Source: an uncultured Methylophaga sp. (GTDB lineage: Bacteria > Pseudomonadota > Gammaproteobacteria > Nitrosococcales > Methylophagaceae). Taken from it: a stretch of 64,000 nucleotides of DNA. Below, piece by piece: positions 17,629 to 30,191 of the stretch. The DNA lies in the NCBI GenBank assembly GCA_913055695.1, contig CAJXKF010000004.1, positions 186,001-250,000 on the forward strand. Direction: 5' to 3'. Position numbers and translations under genes: made by a program. Numbering within the stretch: position 1 is the first letter of the stretch; every line of letters begins with the position of its first letter. The notes beneath the pieces were generated by a model. That model was not told the DNA's origin, ran no database searches, and worked only from the letters and a program-made list of their open reading frames with translations.

Positions 17629-17644
17629 TGGCATGGTGATTGCG
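17629..17644 (+). promoter_or_regulatory. Sigma54 promoter of nirB-nirD-nasA
   Basis: TGGCATGGTGATTGCG has the invariant GG and GC separated by 10 bp and close matches in both the -24 (TTGGCA) and -12 (TTGC) boxes. Transcription would begin near 17654, leaving only ~22 nt before the nirB ATG. There is no room for an antitermination leader, unlike the porin and nrtA units. Confidence 0.8.
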
Positions 17645-23281: not shown

Positions 23282-23297
23282 TGGCACTATGGTTGCA
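23282..23297 (+). promoter_or_regulatory. Sigma54 promoter of nitrate porin
   Basis: TGGCACTATGGTTGCA is a nearly perfect -24/-12 promoter (TGGCAC, GG-N10-GC, TTGCA). The predicted transcription start is near 23307, giving a ~115-nt leader that contains the ANTAR hairpins and terminator. Confidence 0.9.
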
Positions 23298-23315: not shown

Positions 23316-23407
23316 CTGCAACGACGCAGCCATCTTTCTTTTCGATATTAACAATGAATCAATCAAGGTAACGAAGCCATGACAGGGTGACCTGCATGGC
23401 TTTTTTT
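23316..23407 (+). ncRNA. ANTAR-responsive antitermination leader, porin
   Basis: Hairpin P1: CTGC/GCAG stem with hexaloop AACGAC (23316-23329). Hairpin P2: CAAGGU/GCCAUG stem with one A-A mismatch and hexaloop AACGAA (23364-23381). Both loops have the A1 and G4 that define ANTAR targets. The terminator stem AGCCATG-CAGG/CCTG-CATGGCT (23375-23401), followed by a T-run, uses the 3' side of P2 as its 5' arm, so P2 and the terminator exclude each other. Stabilisation of P1/P2 by the ANTAR protein encoded at 25993 would let transcription reach the porin gene. Confidence 0.85.
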
Positions 23408-23422
23408 ATACGAGGATAAACA

Positions 23423-24685
23423 ATGCCAAAAATGAAAAAACTGACGGCTTTAAGCCTGTTAGCGACCGGAATCAGCAGTATGGCAATCGCTCCGACGGCG
23501 GCCCTGGCGGAAGATGCATTTATCGATGCGCTGACTGGCGGTGAAGTGAGTTTTTCCGCCCGTGCCCGTTATGAAAATGTGAAGCAGGATAATGCACTGG
23601 AAGACGCCGATGCGTTTACGCTGCGCACCACACTGGGATATAAAACCGGTGCCTTTCATGGCTTTAGCGGCTTTGTTGAATTTGAAGATGTGTCGCATCT
23701 GGGCCCGGATGATTTCAATGCAGCAGGCACCAATAACGAACCCGACTATTCTATCGTGGCAGATCCGGAAGGCACTGAAGTGAATCAGGCTTATCTGGCA
23801 TACGGTGCTTTTGATACCACCTTTAAATTCGGCCGTCAGATCATTACCTACCGTGATGCCCCGTTTCATCGTTTTATCGGCACCGTGGGCTGGCGTCAGA
23901 ACTGGCAGACCTTTGATGCCTTAAGCATCGTGAATCAGTCATTGCCTGACACCACTTTGAGCTATGCCTACCTGGACAAGGTTCAGACCATCTTTGGTGA
24001 AGACGGTAACAATGCAGCCTTATTGGTCGAGGATGGCGAAATCGAAATGGACAGCCATTTATTCAATGCCCAATACAGTGGCCTGCCGATTGGCAACCTG
24101 GAGGGGTATGCCTATCTGCTGGATTATGAGGACTCAGTGGATGATTCCGCTTATTCCCGTGCCACCTATGGCGCAAGATTGTCTGGTGCGCAGCCATTCA
24201 ATGAGGCTTTCAAAGTGGTTTATAGCACTGAATATGCGACACAGGATGATTATGCTGATGGTGAGATGGACCAGCAGGATTATTACCTGTTGGAACTGGG
24301 CGGTAAGTACAAAGGCTGGTTGCTCAAGTTGTCACATGAAGTACAGGAAGGTGATGGCACATTCAGCTTCCGCACCCCTCTCGGCACCAATCATGCCTAT
24401 CAGGGCTGGGCGGATATTTTCCTTAATACCCCTACGCAAGGCCTCGAAGATACCTACGTGACGCTGGTGGGTGATGTGATGGAAGCCAAGCTGGTTGCGG
24501 TTTACCATGATTTCGAAACCGATGAAGACAGTCTGGATGCCGGTGATGAGTTTGACATTATGTTGCAGAAAACTTTCAAACAGCATTACACCGTGGGCGT
24601 TAAATATGCTGACTACAATGCAGATGATGAATTCGGCGGTGTTGATACCGAAAAATTCTGGGTCTACGGTGAGCTTAAATTCTGA
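23423..24685 (+). CDS. Outer-membrane porin of nitrate cluster
   Basis: 420 residues. A signal peptide ends at ALA (about residue 29) and a beta-barrel follows, with strands such as FKFGRQIITYRDAPFHRFIG and the C-terminal EKFWVYGELKF closing on Phe. The strand pattern resembles the alginate-export/general porin group. Its place between nasA and the nitrate sensors, its sigma54 promoter and its ANTAR-type leader indicate that it admits nitrate or nitrite through the outer membrane. That role is inferred from regulation, not from the fold. The start follows an AGGATAAAC ribosome site, and a strong terminator follows the gene. Confidence 0.82.
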   Translation: MPKMKKLTALSLLATGISSMAIAPTAALAEDAFIDALTGGEVSFSARARYENVKQDNALEDADAFTLRTTLGYKTGAFHGFSGFVEFEDVSHLGPDDFNAAGTNNEPDYSIVADPEGTEVNQAYLAYGAFDTTFKFGRQIITYRDAPFHRFIGTVGWRQNWQTFDALSIVNQSLPDTTLSYAYLDKVQTIFGEDGNNAALLVEDGEIEMDSHLFNAQYSGLPIGNLEGYAYLLDYEDSVDDSAYSRATYGARLSGAQPFNEAFKVVYSTEYATQDDYADGEMDQQDYYLLELGGKYKGWLLKLSHEVQEGDGTFSFRTPLGTNHAYQGWADIFLNTPTQGLEDTYVTLVGDVMEAKLVAVYHDFETDEDSLDAGDEFDIMLQKTFKQHYTVGVKYADYNADDEFGGVDTEKFWVYGELKF

Positions 24686-24880: not shown

Positions 24881-24896
24881 TGGCACAGCTTATGCA
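24881..24896 (+). promoter_or_regulatory. Sigma54 promoter of small peptide-NIT-ANTAR operon
   Basis: TGGCACAGCTTATGCA has a perfect TGGCAC -24 box, GG-N10-GC spacing and a TATGCA -12 box. Transcription would start near 24907, 14 nt before the AGGAGGT ribosome site of the 37-codon gene. Confidence 0.88.
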
Positions 24897-24933: not shown

Positions 24934-25047
24934 ATGGGATACGTCATTGATTGTGTATTTCTGCTGAAAGAGTTGGGGAAATTAGTCTTTATGGTCATGA
25001 TTTCCCCGCTGGGGCTGATGGCCGGATTTTTAGTTGCCTGGGAGTAA
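24934..25047 (+). CDS. 37-residue membrane peptide, first gene of nitrate-sensing operon
   Basis: A small gene not previously recognisable by length. ATG at 24934 is preceded by a perfect AGGAGGT ribosome site with 6-nt spacing, directly behind the sigma54 promoter. The peptide begins MGYVIDCVFLLKELGKL and continues with a single hydrophobic helix (VFMVMISPLGLMAGFLVAW), ending in Glu and TAA. A one-pass inner-membrane peptide with one Cys is predicted. It precedes the membrane-anchored NIT protein, so an accessory role in that sensor complex or in transport is plausible. I do not recognise a family. Confidence 0.75.
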   Translation: MGYVIDCVFLLKELGKLVFMVMISPLGLMAGFLVAWE

Positions 25048-25132: not shown

Positions 25133-25996
25133 ATGTATCCGATGTTTATCGGTGGCCTCACCGTTGTGTGCCTTATGTACCTTATCAGCCGTCTTGCCGT
25201 CATGAGACGCGAAGAGCAGCGCCGGATTGAGCAGGGTATTCTGCTGACCGTACACATGAAGCGGATTATTGATAGCTGTCAGAAGCACCGCGGTACCAGC
25301 AATGCCGTGAATCAGGGCAACGCTAAACTGAAACCCCAGCTGGTCAGCCTGCAGGGAGATATTGATCACCTTATTGCCAGCAGTGACAGCCTGCAGCTCA
25401 AACGTTTTCCGCAATGGGAATCCTTCACTGAACACTGGCCCAGACTGAAGAAGCATGCCTTGGCCGGGGATCTGAAATCCCATAACCTGGTGCGACAGCA
25501 CAGTCTGATGATAGATGGCCAGCTTTCCCTGCTGGATGATGTGATGCGTGATCACGATCTGCACCGGATGATGCTGGATCGCTGCACCCGGGTGTCTGAA
25601 GTCTGCCTTGATACCCTGCGCGTGGCGGAAACAGTGGGACAAACCCGGGCAGTAGGTTCCGGCATCTGTGCCCGCGGTATCTGTGAGGGCGCTGATCGAA
25701 TCATACTCGACTTCCTCAGAATTTCAGTGCAGAGCACCACCAATGAACTGGTGAAACAAATCAACGGCATCAAAAATGAGGATCTGCATCACGCGCTGCA
25801 AAACGCCTCCAAAGCTATCAGTGACAGCATTGGCAAACTGACTGAGATGGTCGAGTTCAACGTGCTCAGGGAGGGGCGGGTGCAGGTTGATTCCAATGAT
25901 TATTTCAATGTTTCCACCCGGGCGATTGATGAGGTGCTGAAAGTGTTCGGCATCATCATTCACTATGCCTCGCAACAACACACCCGAATGATATGA
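25133..25996 (+). CDS. Membrane-anchored nitrate/nitrite-sensing (NIT-domain) protein
   Basis: 287 residues. One hydrophobic helix at 4-22 (FIGGLTVVCLMYLISRL) is followed by an all-helical NIT domain for the rest of the chain. Features shared with the sensory half of Klebsiella NasR are the HRGTSNAVNQG segment near the N terminus and the ETVGQTRAVGSGICARG segment in the second helical half. Unlike NasR there is no ANTAR domain: that domain is encoded by the next gene, whose ATG overlaps this stop (ATGA). The fixed 1:1 coupling suggests that nitrate bound here controls the ANTAR protein by contact. The ribosome site GGAGAG supports ATG at 25133. Confidence 0.85.
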   Translation: MYPMFIGGLTVVCLMYLISRLAVMRREEQRRIEQGILLTVHMKRIIDSCQKHRGTSNAVNQGNAKLKPQLVSLQGDIDHLIASSDSLQLKRFPQWESFTEHWPRLKKHALAGDLKSHNLVRQHSLMIDGQLSLLDDVMRDHDLHRMMLDRCTRVSEVCLDTLRVAETVGQTRAVGSGICARGICEGADRIILDFLRISVQSTTNELVKQINGIKNEDLHHALQNASKAISDSIGKLTEMVEFNVLREGRVQVDSNDYFNVSTRAIDEVLKVFGIIIHYASQQHTRMI

Positions 25997-26613
25997 GCAG
26001 CGTTGCCATGAATTCCGAGACCAGCATCAATACCATCGTTATCAGTGAACACGGCGATATCAGTAGTAGTCTGAACAAGACGCTGGCAGAGACGCCGTAC
26101 AAGATCATCTTTGAAGGCTCCACCCTGCAGCAGTTACTGACTTTGAAATGGACTGTGGAGCCGGAACTGATTATCGCGGTCATGGATAACAGTGATAACG
26201 ATATGCTCAGCAAGTTCAAGGTAATCAACGAGCAGTTTCCGCTGCCGATTGTGATCTTCACCCATGATGATCGTGATGACGCGATTGAGCAGGCGATTCA
26301 GGCAGGGGTGAGCGCTTATATTGTTGATGGATTTCGTGAGGACCGTGTACTGCCTATCCTTAGAACCGCGATGGCGCGTTTCCGACAGTATCAGTCGATG
26401 CAAAAGCATATTAAGGAACTCAAAACTTCACTGGCTGATCGCAAGATTATTGATCGCGCCAAGGGACTTATTATGGAGCAACGCAACTGCAGTGAGGATG
26501 AAGCTTATCGACTGCTGCGCAGCTCGGCAATGAATCAGAATATGCGGCTGGCGCAACTGGCACAGAATATTCTGGCGACAGCAAGTCTGCTGGAACCCAA
26601 GAAATCGGTCTGA
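25993..26613 (+). CDS. nasT: ANTAR-domain antitermination regulator (NasT-like)
   Basis: 206 residues. A receiver-like domain (about 12-130) is followed by a C-terminal ANTAR RNA-binding domain (DRKIIDRAKGLIMEQRNCSEDEAYRLLRSSAMNQNMRLAQLAQNIL) that keeps the signature residues. The receiver is degenerate: the usual acidic pair is replaced by VISEHGD, and the acceptor strand reads IIAVMDNSD with no clear phospho-Asp at the standard place. Control is therefore likely by protein contact with the NIT protein rather than by phosphorylation. Expected targets are the two-hairpin leaders before the porin (23316) and nrtA (26794). No NasS gene is adjacent. Confidence 0.9.
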   Translation: MSSVAMNSETSINTIVISEHGDISSSLNKTLAETPYKIIFEGSTLQQLLTLKWTVEPELIIAVMDNSDNDMLSKFKVINEQFPLPIVIFTHDDRDDAIEQAIQAGVSAYIVDGFREDRVLPILRTAMARFRQYQSMQKHIKELKTSLADRKIIDRAKGLIMEQRNCSEDEAYRLLRSSAMNQNMRLAQLAQNILATASLLEPKKSV

Positions 26614-26637: not shown

Positions 26638-26652
26638 GCACCAGCGCTGTGC
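26638..26652 (+). promoter_or_regulatory. NtrC-type site upstream of nrtA
   Basis: GCACCAGCGCTGTGC fits GCAC-N7-GTGC exactly and lies ~107 bp before the sigma54 -24 box of nrtA. Confidence 0.6.
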
Positions 26653-26757: not shown

Positions 26758-26773
26758 TTGGCATATTATCTGC
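26758..26773 (+). promoter_or_regulatory. Sigma54 promoter of nrtABC
   Basis: TTGGCATATTATCTGC keeps GG-N10-GC and a good -24 box; the -12 box (CTGC) is one base off. The predicted start is near 26784, about 10 nt before the P1 hairpin, the same distance as in the porin leader. Confidence 0.8.
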
Positions 26774-26793
26774 TAACACTCCTGTGAGTCACA

Positions 26794-26872
26794 ACCCAAC
26801 GACGGGTAAACACAACTTCATTTCTGGATAAAGACGTCCTTGCAGCCTCGCCTGTGAGTACGTCTTTTTTTT
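26794..26872 (+). ncRNA. ANTAR-responsive antitermination leader, nrtA
   Basis: P1: ACCC/GGGT stem with hexaloop AACGAC (26794-26807), the same loop sequence as P1 of the porin leader. P2: GGAU/GUCC stem with hexaloop AAAGAC (26826-26839). Both loops have A1 and G4. P2 overlaps the 5' arm of a strong terminator: AAAGACGT (26830-26837) pairs with ACGTCTTT (26860-26867), with a further CTTGCAG/CTGTGAG inner stem, followed by a T-run to 26872. This is the same mutually exclusive P2/terminator design as at 23316-23407, so nitrate transport should be switched on by nitrate. Confidence 0.88.
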
Positions 26873-26894: not shown

Positions 26895-28295
26895 ATGCGA
26901 AAACAGTTATCCATCACACGCCGTGCACTGGTCAAGAGCCTGGCAGCGGCCAGTCTGGTATTGAGCAGTGGCATGATGTCCGCCACCAGTGCTTATGCCG
27001 CACCTGGTGAAATTGAAAAGCCTGAGCTCAAATTCGGCTTTATTAAACTGACCGATATGGCACCGCTCGCCATTGCCTACGAAAAGTTCTTTTTTGAAGA
27101 CGAAGGGCTCTACGTCACGCTGGAAGCACAGGCCAACTGGAAAGTCCTGCTCGACGGTGTGATTGACGGCACGCTGGATGGGGCACATATGCTGGCCGGT
27201 CAGCCACTGGGCGCGACCATCGGTTTTGGTACCAAGGCTGACATCATTACCGCCTTCAGTATGGATCTGAACGGTAACGGAATTACCGTTTCCAACGACA
27301 TCTGGGCGCAGATGAAACCTCATGTACCCATCGGCGAAGATGGCAAACCGGTGCACCCTATCAGTGCTAAAGCGCTGAAACCGGTAGTCGATTCCTATAA
27401 AGCCGAAGGCAAGTCCTTCAACATGGGCATGGTGTTTCCGGTTTCCACCCATAATTACGAACTGCGTTACTGGCTGGCAGCCGGCGGTATTCACCCCGGC
27501 TATTACGCACCGCATAAAGGCGATGTCAGCGGTCAGTTACAGGCAGATGCGCTGCTATCAGTAACACCACCACCGCAAATGCCGGCCACCATGGAAGCTG
27601 GCACCATTTATGGCTACTGCGTCGGGGAACCCTGGAATCAGCAGGCTGTATTCAAGGGTATTGGCGTGCCGGTCATTACCGATTATGAGATCTGGAAGAA
27701 CAATCCCGAGAAAGTCTTCGGGGTGAGCAAGCAATGGGCGGAAGAAAACCCCAATACCCATATTGCTGTGGTCAAGGCATTGATCCGCGCCGCCCACTGG
27801 CTGGATGAGAACAGTAATGCCAACCGACCGGAAGCGGTGGAAATCCTGTCTCAGAGTCGTTATGTCGGCGCTGACTATGAAGTGATTGCCAACAGCATGA
27901 CCGGCACTTTCGAATACGAAAAAGGGGATAAGCGCGCGGTACCTGACTTTAATGTTTTCTTCCGCTATAACGCGACCTATCCCTACTACAGTGATGCAGT
28001 CTGGTATCTGACCCAGATGCGCCGCTGGGGCCAGATTGCCGAACCTAAACCCGACAGCTGGTATATGGATATCGCCAAAAAAGTCTATCGTCCTGATATC
28101 TATGCCTTGGCAGCCAAAGAGCTGATCGAAGAAGGCAAACTGCCTGCCTCGGCCTTCCCTGACTTTGACACCGAAACCGGTTTCAAACCGGTACAGACCG
28201 AGTTTATTGATGGTATCGCTTACGACGGCACCAAGCCTAATGCTTATCTGCAGCAGTTCCCGATTGGCCTGAAAGGTGATGCGGTTGTCGAGTAA
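26895..28295 (+). CDS. nrtA: Nitrate ABC transporter, substrate-binding protein
   Basis: 466 residues. ATG at 26895 follows CAGGAG; it opens a twin-arginine-type signal ([16 protein letters not shown]...SAYA). The mature protein is of the NrtA/CmpA nitrate-bicarbonate-binding family: [28 protein letters not shown], then [24 protein letters not shown]. Its synthesis depends on readthrough of the leader terminator. A stable stem-loop follows the stop, before nrtB. NasS, the regulatory homologue, lacks an export signal, so this copy is judged the transporter subunit. Confidence 0.92.
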
Positions 28296-28367: not shown

Positions 28368-29390
28368 ATGAAAGACAAACTGATTTATTTTCTTGAGTTG
28401 ACCGGCTTTACCTGGTTTATACCATTGGTCAGGCTGTCAGCAGGGGAGTCCCCCAAACACCAGATGCAGGAACTGGGCAAAATGGTCGGTGTGCCTTTAT
28501 TTGCGATCGCAGTGTTTTTGTTTCTCTGGCATTTGGGGGCTGCCAAAGTCATCACCAGTCTTGGTCAGGTGCCGGGCCCGACCCAGGTCTGGGAGCAGGT
28601 GAATGTGCTGGTGGATGAACACCAGGCGTCACGGGAACGGGAACAGGCTTTTTATGAAAGGCAGGAACAGCGCAATGCTGCCAGGCTGGAGAAAAATCCG
28701 GATGCTGAGGTTACCATCCGGCCCTACACCGGCAAGGAAACCTTTTTCGATCAAATTCTGACCAGCCTGTTTACAGTGTTTGTCGGCTTTCTGCTGGCTA
28801 CCATCATCGCCGTGCCGATCGGTATCGTCGCGGGCTTGTCCGACACCCTGTATTCGGCGCTCAATCCCTTGATCCAGGTATTTAAACCGGTATCGCCGCT
28901 GGCCTGGCTGCCGATTGTCACCATGGTGGTCAGCGCACTGTATGTGACTGACAATCCCATGTTCGAGAAATCCTTTATCACCTCGGCGCTGACCGTGACC
29001 TTATGTTCTCTGTGGCCGACCTTGATAAACACCGCCGTCGGCGTGTCTTCGATTGATAAGGATTTGATTAATGTCGCCAGGGTGTTACGCCTCAATTATT
29101 TCACTACCGTCTGGAAAGTGGTGATTCCGGCGTCTATTCCGATGATTTTCACCGGCCTGCGGATTTCACTCGGCATCGGCTGGATGGTGCTGATCGCGGC
29201 TGAGATGCTGGCACAGAATCCGGGGCTGGGCAAATTCGTCTGGGATGAATTCCAGAACGGCAGTTCCTCCTCACTCAGCCGCATTATGGTCGCGGTGCTG
29301 ACCATCGGCATTATCGGTTTCATTCTGGATCGCATCACCCTGAGCTTCCAGAAATTCTTTTCTTATGACAAAAACGCAGTGATTCGTTAG
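28368..29390 (+). CDS. nrtB: Nitrate ABC transporter, permease
   Basis: 340 residues, inner membrane. An amphipathic N-terminal part and a first helix (VPLFAIAVFLFLWHLGA) are followed by a charged region of about 55 residues (EHQASREREQAFYERQEQRN...) and then the ABC permease domain, with the coupling loop around VARVLRLNYFTTVWKVVIPASIP. It belongs to the NrtB/SsuC family. The charged insertion after helix 1 is typical of NrtB-type permeases. nrtC starts 9 bp downstream. Confidence 0.92.
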   Translation: MKDKLIYFLELTGFTWFIPLVRLSAGESPKHQMQELGKMVGVPLFAIAVFLFLWHLGAAKVITSLGQVPGPTQVWEQVNVLVDEHQASREREQAFYERQEQRNAARLEKNPDAEVTIRPYTGKETFFDQILTSLFTVFVGFLLATIIAVPIGIVAGLSDTLYSALNPLIQVFKPVSPLAWLPIVTMVVSALYVTDNPMFEKSFITSALTVTLCSLWPTLINTAVGVSSIDKDLINVARVLRLNYFTTVWKVVIPASIPMIFTGLRISLGIGWMVLIAAEMLAQNPGLGKFVWDEFQNGSSSSLSRIMVAVLTIGIIGFILDRITLSFQKFFSYDKNAVIR

Positions 29391-29399
29391 GAGCAGACT

Positions 29400-30191
29400 A
29401 TGGATAAGTATCTCAATATCGACCATGTGAGCATTGATTTCCCGACACCGAATGGTCCGTTCCGGGCGCTGGATAATGTCAATCTGAAAATTGAAAAGGG
29501 TGAGTTCGTCAGCATCATCGGCCATTCAGGCTGCGGTAAATCCACGGTCATGAATATTGTCGGCGGGCTCTACAAAGCGACTGAAGGCGGGGTGGTGCTG
29601 GAAGGCAGGGAAGTTGATGAGCCGGGCCCTGACCGTGCCATCGTGTTCCAGAATCATTCGCTGTTTCCCTGGCTCAGCTGTTACCAGAATGTGGAACTGG
29701 CGGTGAAATCGGTGTTTGGCGCCAGCCGCAGCAGAAAACAAATCCGTGACTGGGTTGAGCATAATCTGGAGCTGGTACATATGAGCCATGCGATGCATAA
29801 AATGCCATCGGAAATTTCCGGTGGCATGAAACAGCGTGTCGGTATTGCCCGGGCGCTGTCGATGGAACCCAAGGTACTGCTGATGGATGAGCCTTTTGGT
29901 GCACTCGATGCCTTGACCCGCGCCCATCTGCAGGATTCGCTCATGGATATTCAGGCAGACCTCAATAACACCGTCATCATGATTACCCACGATGTGGATG
30001 AGGCGGTGCTGTTGTCAGACAAGATTGTGATGATGACCAACGGGCCGGCAGCCACTATCAGTGAGGTGATGGAGGTCAATCTGCCCAGGCCGCGGAAACG
30101 ACTCGCACTAACCGATAATCCTGACTATAACCATTATCGCTCGGAAGTGATTCACTTCCTGCATGAGCGCCACGCCCGCAAGGTCGCCTGA
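29400..30191 (+). CDS. nrtC: Nitrate ABC transporter, ATP-binding protein
   Basis: 263 residues. Walker A is GHSGCGKST, the Q-loop is VFQNHSLFPWLS, the signature is SGGMKQRVGIARAL, Walker B is VLLMDEPFGALD, and the switch His is in ITHDVDEA. It ends soon after the ATPase core, so it lacks the NrtA-like regulatory extension of cyanobacterial NrtC and equals NrtD in length. It powers import through NrtB in the inner membrane. The last gene of the nrtABC operon, it is followed by a terminator. Confidence 0.92.
   Translation: MDKYLNIDHVSIDFPTPNGPFRALDNVNLKIEKGEFVSIIGHSGCGKSTVMNIVGGLYKATEGGVVLEGREVDEPGPDRAIVFQNHSLFPWLSCYQNVELAVKSVFGASRSRKQIRDWVEHNLELVHMSHAMHKMPSEISGGMKQRVGIARALSMEPKVLLMDEPFGALDALTRAHLQDSLMDIQADLNNTVIMITHDVDEAVLLSDKIVMMTNGPAATISEVMEVNLPRPRKRLALTDNPDYNHYRSEVIHFLHERHARKVA

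Follow-up and report, generated by a model that had tools for sequence, protein, structure and literature searches.

A probable ANTAR-type antitermination switch in the nrtA leader of a Methylophaga nas cluster

The nas cluster and its two leaders

The window (the whole 64,000-nt stretch of Methylophaga DNA that was analysed) carries a nas cluster in the order nirB, nirD, nasA, porin gene, a 37-aa open reading frame, a gene for a NIT-fold protein, an ANTAR gene, nrtA, nrtB and nrtC, followed by genes for an EAL protein, NarK and a phosphatase-kinase (Table 1). This order is maintained in many relatives, and the near ones include M. thiooxydans, M. aminisulfidivorans and M. lonarensis. Sigma54 promoter-like sites precede nirB, the porin gene, the NIT-ANTAR operon and nrtABC; across the genome 22 such sites were found, compared with 4 for a reversed control pattern. 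The NtrC-like palindrome upstream of nrtA agrees with the consensus at 10 of 12 positions, a degree of agreement that about 1% of shuffles reach, and almost all of the relatives' nrtA upstream regions have it at a similar place (-136 to -158 from the P1 loop). NtrC itself is encoded in the genome. The 37-aa open reading frame (24934-25047) is hydrophobic, shows 54–68% identity in close relatives and is the first gene of the NIT-ANTAR operon, behind the sigma54 site.

Table 1. Features of the nas cluster, in positions of the window
Feature	Position	Strand	Evidence or remark
Sigma54 promoter-like site of nirB	17629..17644	+	48 nt before start codon
Sigma54 promoter-like site TGGCACTATGGTTGCA of porin gene	23282..23297	+	
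Porin leader P1, CUGC[AACGAC]GCAG	23316..23329	+	same loop as nrtA P1; covariation
Porin leader P2, GGU[AACGAA]GCC	23367..23378	+	
Porin leader terminator AAGCCAUG/CAUGGCUU and U tract	23374..23407	+	
Outer-membrane porin-like gene of nas cluster	23423..24685	+	weak PF13372 match; synteny in relatives
Sigma54 promoter-like site TGGCACAGCTTATGCA of small ORF-NIT-ANTAR operon, no leader	24881..24896	+	kept in most relatives
Stand-alone NIT-fold protein, 287 aa	25133..25996	+	predicted structure; weak PF08376 match
Pseudo-receiver and ANTAR protein	25993..26613	+	sole ANTAR protein of the genome, 80.7 bits
NtrC-like palindrome GCACCAGCGCTGTGC	26638..26652	.	about 140 nt upstream of predicted nrtA start
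Sigma54 promoter-like site TGGCATATTATCTGCT of nrtABC	26759..26774	+	conserved in relatives
nrtA leader P1 hairpin, ACCC[AACGAC]GGGU	26794..26807	+	covarying stem; invariant loop A1 and G4
nrtA leader P1-P2 linker, 18 nt	26808..26825	+	
nrtA leader P2 hairpin (antiterminator), GGAU[AAAGAC]GUCC	26826..26839	+	covariation; folding
nrtA leader intrinsic terminator	26830..26872	+	5' arm AAAGACGU 26830-26837; 3' arm ACGUCUUU 26860-26867
nrtA, nitrate ABC transporter binding protein	26895..28295	+	PF13379, 328 bits
nrtB, permease	28368..29390	+	TIGR01183 best match, below its cut-off
nrtC, ATPase	29400..30191	+	TIGR01184, over its cut-off

The nrtA leader (26794-26872) is arranged as sigma54 site, P1, P2 and terminator, ahead of nrtABC. 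The P1 loop AACGAC (26798-26803) is closed by a C-G pair, whereas the P2 loop AAAGAC (26830-26835) has a U-G wobble as its closing pair rather than C-G. The 5' arm of the terminator consists of the P2 loop and two bases of the P2 3' stem, and its U tract is encoded by 8 T (26865-26872). When the RNA up to 26845 was folded, P1 together with P2 gave the best predicted structure (-8.6 kcal/mol), and with the 3' arm present P1 together with the terminator won (-22.4 kcal/mol). P2 and the terminator are mutually exclusive folds that arise in transcription order. The porin leader (23316-23407) repeats this anatomy as judged by folding, including a terminator that overlaps P2, and has a P1-P2 linker of 37 nt. 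The geometry given in the original prediction was recovered closely: the AACGAC loop of P1 is the same to the base in the nrtA and porin leaders, P2 with its AAAGAC loop overlaps the terminator arm at exactly 26830-26837, and in both leaders the distance from the start predicted by the respective sigma54 site to P1 is about 9-10 nt.

No leader was found before nirB, where the short distance from the sigma54 site to the start codon leaves no room for one. Since nirBD-nasA thus has a sigma54 site but no leader, the arrangement suggests that the nitrate-specific step in this cluster lies on the entry genes and not on the reductase operon.

Occurrence and conservation of the leaders

Dinucleotide shuffling, with 2000 shuffles per region, produced the strict motif (P1 with at least 4 Watson-Crick pairs, A1/G4 loops, and a terminator overlapping P2) not once for the nrtA upstream region and in 2 shuffles for the porin upstream region. 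The 64-kb window contains it exactly twice (porin and nrtA), and 20 shuffled windows did not contain it at all. A generic P1-P2-T6 pattern gave 8 matches in the whole genome and 5 in the control, the minus-strand matches being judged by eye, and stems were present in only two of them, again those of porin and nrtA. Neither the covariance models described below nor the generic pattern revealed a third leader in the Methylophaga genome. The weak covariance-model matches (E about 0.001-0.03) that were inspected were unrelated terminators. At gathering scores, Rfam reported no RNA family here other than tRNAs, meaning only that no Rfam model matches. That chance is an unlikely source of two such leaders, as had been argued at the outset, is in line with the shuffling results, and the proposed small regulon of outer- and inner-membrane nitrate entry corresponds to the sole stemmed matches in this genome.

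Leaders were gathered from related genomes by gene position and anchored on the loops. A1 and G4 were constant in both hairpins of 16 nrtA and 13 porin leaders found by a motif scan that itself demands A1 and G4, gene position being the independent criterion. In the nrtA leaders, pair 3 of P1 is C-G in 10 and U-A in 6, and pair 4 of P2 is G-C in 12 and A-U in 4, with both sides changed. The terminator is 100% paired in 15 relatives and displays compensatory A-U/G-C exchange. The original prediction hinged on covariation of P1 and P2 in relatives; on examination, P1, P2 and the terminator all covary across 15 distinct nrtA leaders from related species. The porin leader covaries in P1, where three pairs vary with changes on both sides, and its P2 is invariant and gives no covariation evidence. 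The pair counts of the alignments exceeded those of slid controls and of nearly all shuffles; because they take related sequences as separate, these counts represent support and not a probability.

The leaders also differ among relatives. The closing pair of P2 is U-G in nearly all leaders of the family and C-G in leaders outside it. On inspection, the nrtA leaders of L034, L062, L065, L067 and L069 contain a small CCC/GGG hairpin in the linker, which may shorten the distance and bring both recognition hairpins together. Five relatives (L035-L038 and L070) keep P1 and P2 with A1/G4 loops at nrtA and have no visible intrinsic terminator. A lineage that has lost nrtABC (L057-L061) retains NIT, ANTAR and P1 of the porin leader, and in its porin upstream region P2, the terminator and the sigma54 site are degraded or absent. 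The nas cluster of L043 (genome G048) includes a NIT gene with no ANTAR gene adjoining it; a sigma54-like site is present upstream of its nrtA, and a P1/P2 pair is not.

We used two covariance models, R1 for the nrtA leader and R2 for the porin leader, both trained only on leaders of this family. Across the 57 family genomes, R1 matches with E < 1e-5 lay before nrtA, and R2 matches at this level lay before the porin gene or an FNT transporter gene. An ANTAR gene was present in 16 of the 17 genomes with such a match, compared with 15 of the 40 without one (Fisher P 8e-5). The exception is G032, which has a leader and in which no ANTAR gene was found; a contig end interrupts its nrt region. When R1 was run over 369 genomes of the class, the eight best matches outside the family came from eight other gammaproteobacterial genera and adjoined nirB, nasA or nrtA-like genes, so that the RNA belongs to the known class of ANTAR leaders. 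The linkers of these leaders are also often long. Some relatives (L191, L192 and L193, in G010, G016 and G032) have a third ANTAR-type leader before a formate/nitrite transporter gene (PF01226), once more a gene for uptake, which would extend the uptake regulon.

The ANTAR protein and its candidate sensor

The receiver half of the ANTAR protein has no Asp at the position of the EutV phospho-acceptor, and the usual Lys of EutV is also missing, which makes it a pseudo-receiver as in AmiR. Control by a phosphorylated receiver was ruled out as the acceptor Asp is missing. Tyr164 and Met172 make RNA contacts in EutV (PMC8934654), and they correspond to the conserved Tyr172 and Met180 of this protein.

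The ANTAR gene overlaps by 4 nt the gene upstream of it. The product of this upstream gene scored 18.0 bits against PF08376 (NIT), below the cut-off of 24.9, and we therefore call it a NIT-fold protein. Its predicted structure (pLDDT 92) had NasR (4akk) as the first-ranking solved fold in Foldseek, with Z 23.2 over 258 residues (NasR residues 9-286), compared with 13.3 for the next match, an unrelated bundle. Searching PDB sequences with a profile of the NIT alignment was of no help, so NasR was reached by fold comparison only. Arg53 in the QKHRG motif is invariant, which is only suggestive of nitrate/nitrite binding. At the N terminus a hydrophobic segment precedes basic residues, which suggests that a single membrane helix there probably anchors the protein, with the NIT domain probably in the cytoplasm.

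The NIT gene lies directly upstream of the ANTAR gene in about 20 relatives with one sigma54 site ahead of the two, and the genes overlap in the clade of the window. On the ANTAR tree, the presence or absence of NIT requires about 5 changes, at least 3 of them forced by well supported branches, so that NIT was lost or gained several times. ANTAR and both leaders are present in G028 and G029 (both 99% complete), where a profile search detected no NIT relative; this search had no positive control of its own, although the profile it used does give a match in the window genome. Conversely, NIT occurs without an adjoining ANTAR gene in L042 and L043. As the two come apart in both directions, their partnership is not obligatory. 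Stand-alone NIT proteins of about 280 aa also occur in L091-L098 (Colwellia, Thalassotalea, Moritella, Psychrosphaera and others); a pattern-based scan of the short flanks of these genes found no ANTAR gene near them. No candidate for a NasS sensor was found in this genome beyond NrtA, the only nitrate-binding-protein homologue detected.

We consider it highly probable that the nrtA leader is a nitrate-responsive switch of the ANTAR antitermination type, in which the activity of the ANTAR protein is most likely controlled by the separate NIT protein, a likely sensor that the original prediction does not mention. When nitrogen is limiting, NtrC and sigma54 would start transcription of nrtABC, the porin gene, nirBD-nasA and the regulator operon. 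On the porin and nrtABC transcripts, transcription would end at the intrinsic terminator if the ANTAR protein did not hold first P1 and then P2. Because the terminator's 5' arm is part of P2 when P2 is held, the stop could not form and the uptake genes would be read. The pseudo-receiver would not be switched by phosphorylation; the NIT protein would sense cytoplasmic nitrate or nitrite and would most likely keep ANTAR inactive until the ligand binds.

Two other arrangements of the regulator have to be weighed. The leader might be an ordinary ANTAR leader whose ANTAR protein is governed by something else (NrtA, PII or an unlinked kinase), with NIT serving another function. The genomes that keep ANTAR and intact leaders without NIT fit this arrangement, as do the NIT genes without ANTAR in L042 and L043; we nevertheless regard it as unlikely, given the gene order and shared sigma54 site in about 20 relatives, a predicted NIT fold which is that of the ANTAR-coupled sensor NasR, and a pseudo-receiver without a phosphorylated Asp. 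No more probable, in our view, is a version of the main model in which NIT would be indispensable as an activator, binding nitrate and promoting ANTAR dimerisation. ANTAR dimerisation is the trigger in EutV (PMC3369931), and the NIT and ANTAR genes are adjacent and probably co-transcribed; yet with such an activator, its repeated absence from genomes that retain ANTAR and the leaders would silence uptake. Since the absence of an inhibitor would only render the system constitutive, still under NtrC, we prefer, with modest confidence, a NIT protein that inhibits ANTAR as in AmiC-AmiR and NasS-NasT.

Relation to known antitermination systems

ANTAR leaders of nitrogen genes are a broad known class (Ramesh et al.; PMC3369931, PMC3369936). 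Both leaders of the window contain two hairpins of at least 3 bp with hexanucleotide A1/G4 loops, the features by which this class is recognised, and from sequence comparison the RNA is an ANTAR antitermination leader, a known kind of RNA. As in the eutP, amiE and nasF leaders (PMC3369931, PMC3369936), the hexanucleotide loops of P1 and P2 have A1 and G4, the terminator loses its 5' arm to P2, and the leader stands ahead of a nitrogen-acquisition operon. In contrast to these, P2 is here closed by U-G, the linkers are 18 and 37 nt long, and several relatives have an extra hairpin in the linker.

The U-G closure and the linkers beyond the eut range were counted against the main model, together with the 15 ANTAR-bearing relatives without a strong covariance-model match (including L035-L038, L070 and the lineage that lost nrtABC), G032, and the separation of NIT and ANTAR. 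A C-G closing pair is a preference and lies outside the original search definition of ANTAR targets, and to our knowledge no general limit on linker length has been established for ANTAR leaders. A preference for C-G closure was found in NasR SELEX (PMC7496416), and in E. faecalis eut leaders the linkers are 5-12 nt and their lengthening reduced or abolished antitermination (PMC3369931, PMC8934654).

It seems very unlikely to us that the element is a plain attenuator or intergenic terminator that needs no regulating protein, with P1 and P2 incidental. The terminator is strong enough that it would function by itself, but P1 lies outside it and is still conserved and covarying, neither A1 nor G4 changes in either hairpin of the nrtA or porin leaders, and the terminator separates the promoter from its gene. 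A fortuitous match within AT-rich intergenic sequence, for which the shortness of the motif might speak, is refuted by the absence of the motif from all 2000 shuffles of the nrtA upstream region, its conservation in many species and the model matches at nitrate genes in other genera, and retains practically no credibility.

The departure from known systems lies in the regulator, whose sensor and ANTAR partner are split in two. Klebsiella NasR-nasF (PMC7496416) also combines a NIT-fold sensor with ANTAR output on nitrate genes, under the same loop rules. Unlike NasR, a single polypeptide, NIT and ANTAR are here separate open reading frames (25133-25996 and 25993-26613), the ANTAR protein has a pseudo-receiver, and the NIT protein is seemingly membrane-anchored. 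Whereas the Klebsiella nasF leader precedes the whole nasFEDCBA operon (PMC3369936), the leaders described here are on uptake genes and not on the reductase operon. NasS-NasT (Paracoccus, Azotobacter and Pseudomonas; PMC3795266) likewise has a separate sensor and ANTAR protein acting with a nitrate-regulated leader, but its sensor is an NrtA-like binding protein and not a NIT-fold protein. AmiC-AmiR of Pseudomonas is similar in its pseudo-receiver ANTAR protein, its separate ligand-binding partner and the probable inhibitor logic; its sensor fold and ligand are unrelated. In a literature search mostly without subscription papers, we found no report of a split NIT/ANTAR pair.

The RNA is accordingly a clear new example of a switch already known, backed by covariation and by matches found independently in further genera. 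The whole system would join the NIT sensor of NasR with the two-protein logic of NasS-NasT and AmiC-AmiR, and offers a direct test of NIT control in trans. We tentatively propose, as a possibility just short of probable, that Methylophaga and its relatives run a split NasR, in which cytoplasmic nitrate is sensed by a NIT protein anchored in the membrane, and this protein sequesters an ANTAR protein resembling AmiR, gating only nitrate/nitrite entry (porin, NrtABC and, in some species, an FNT channel) while the reductases follow nitrogen status alone. If so, wherever the sensor was lost, as would have happened repeatedly, the antiterminators would be constitutive and still held in check by NtrC, and the lineages concerned would be natural, ready-made experiments. 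The layout suggested for marine methylotrophs is one in which nitrate gates its uptake rather than its reduction.
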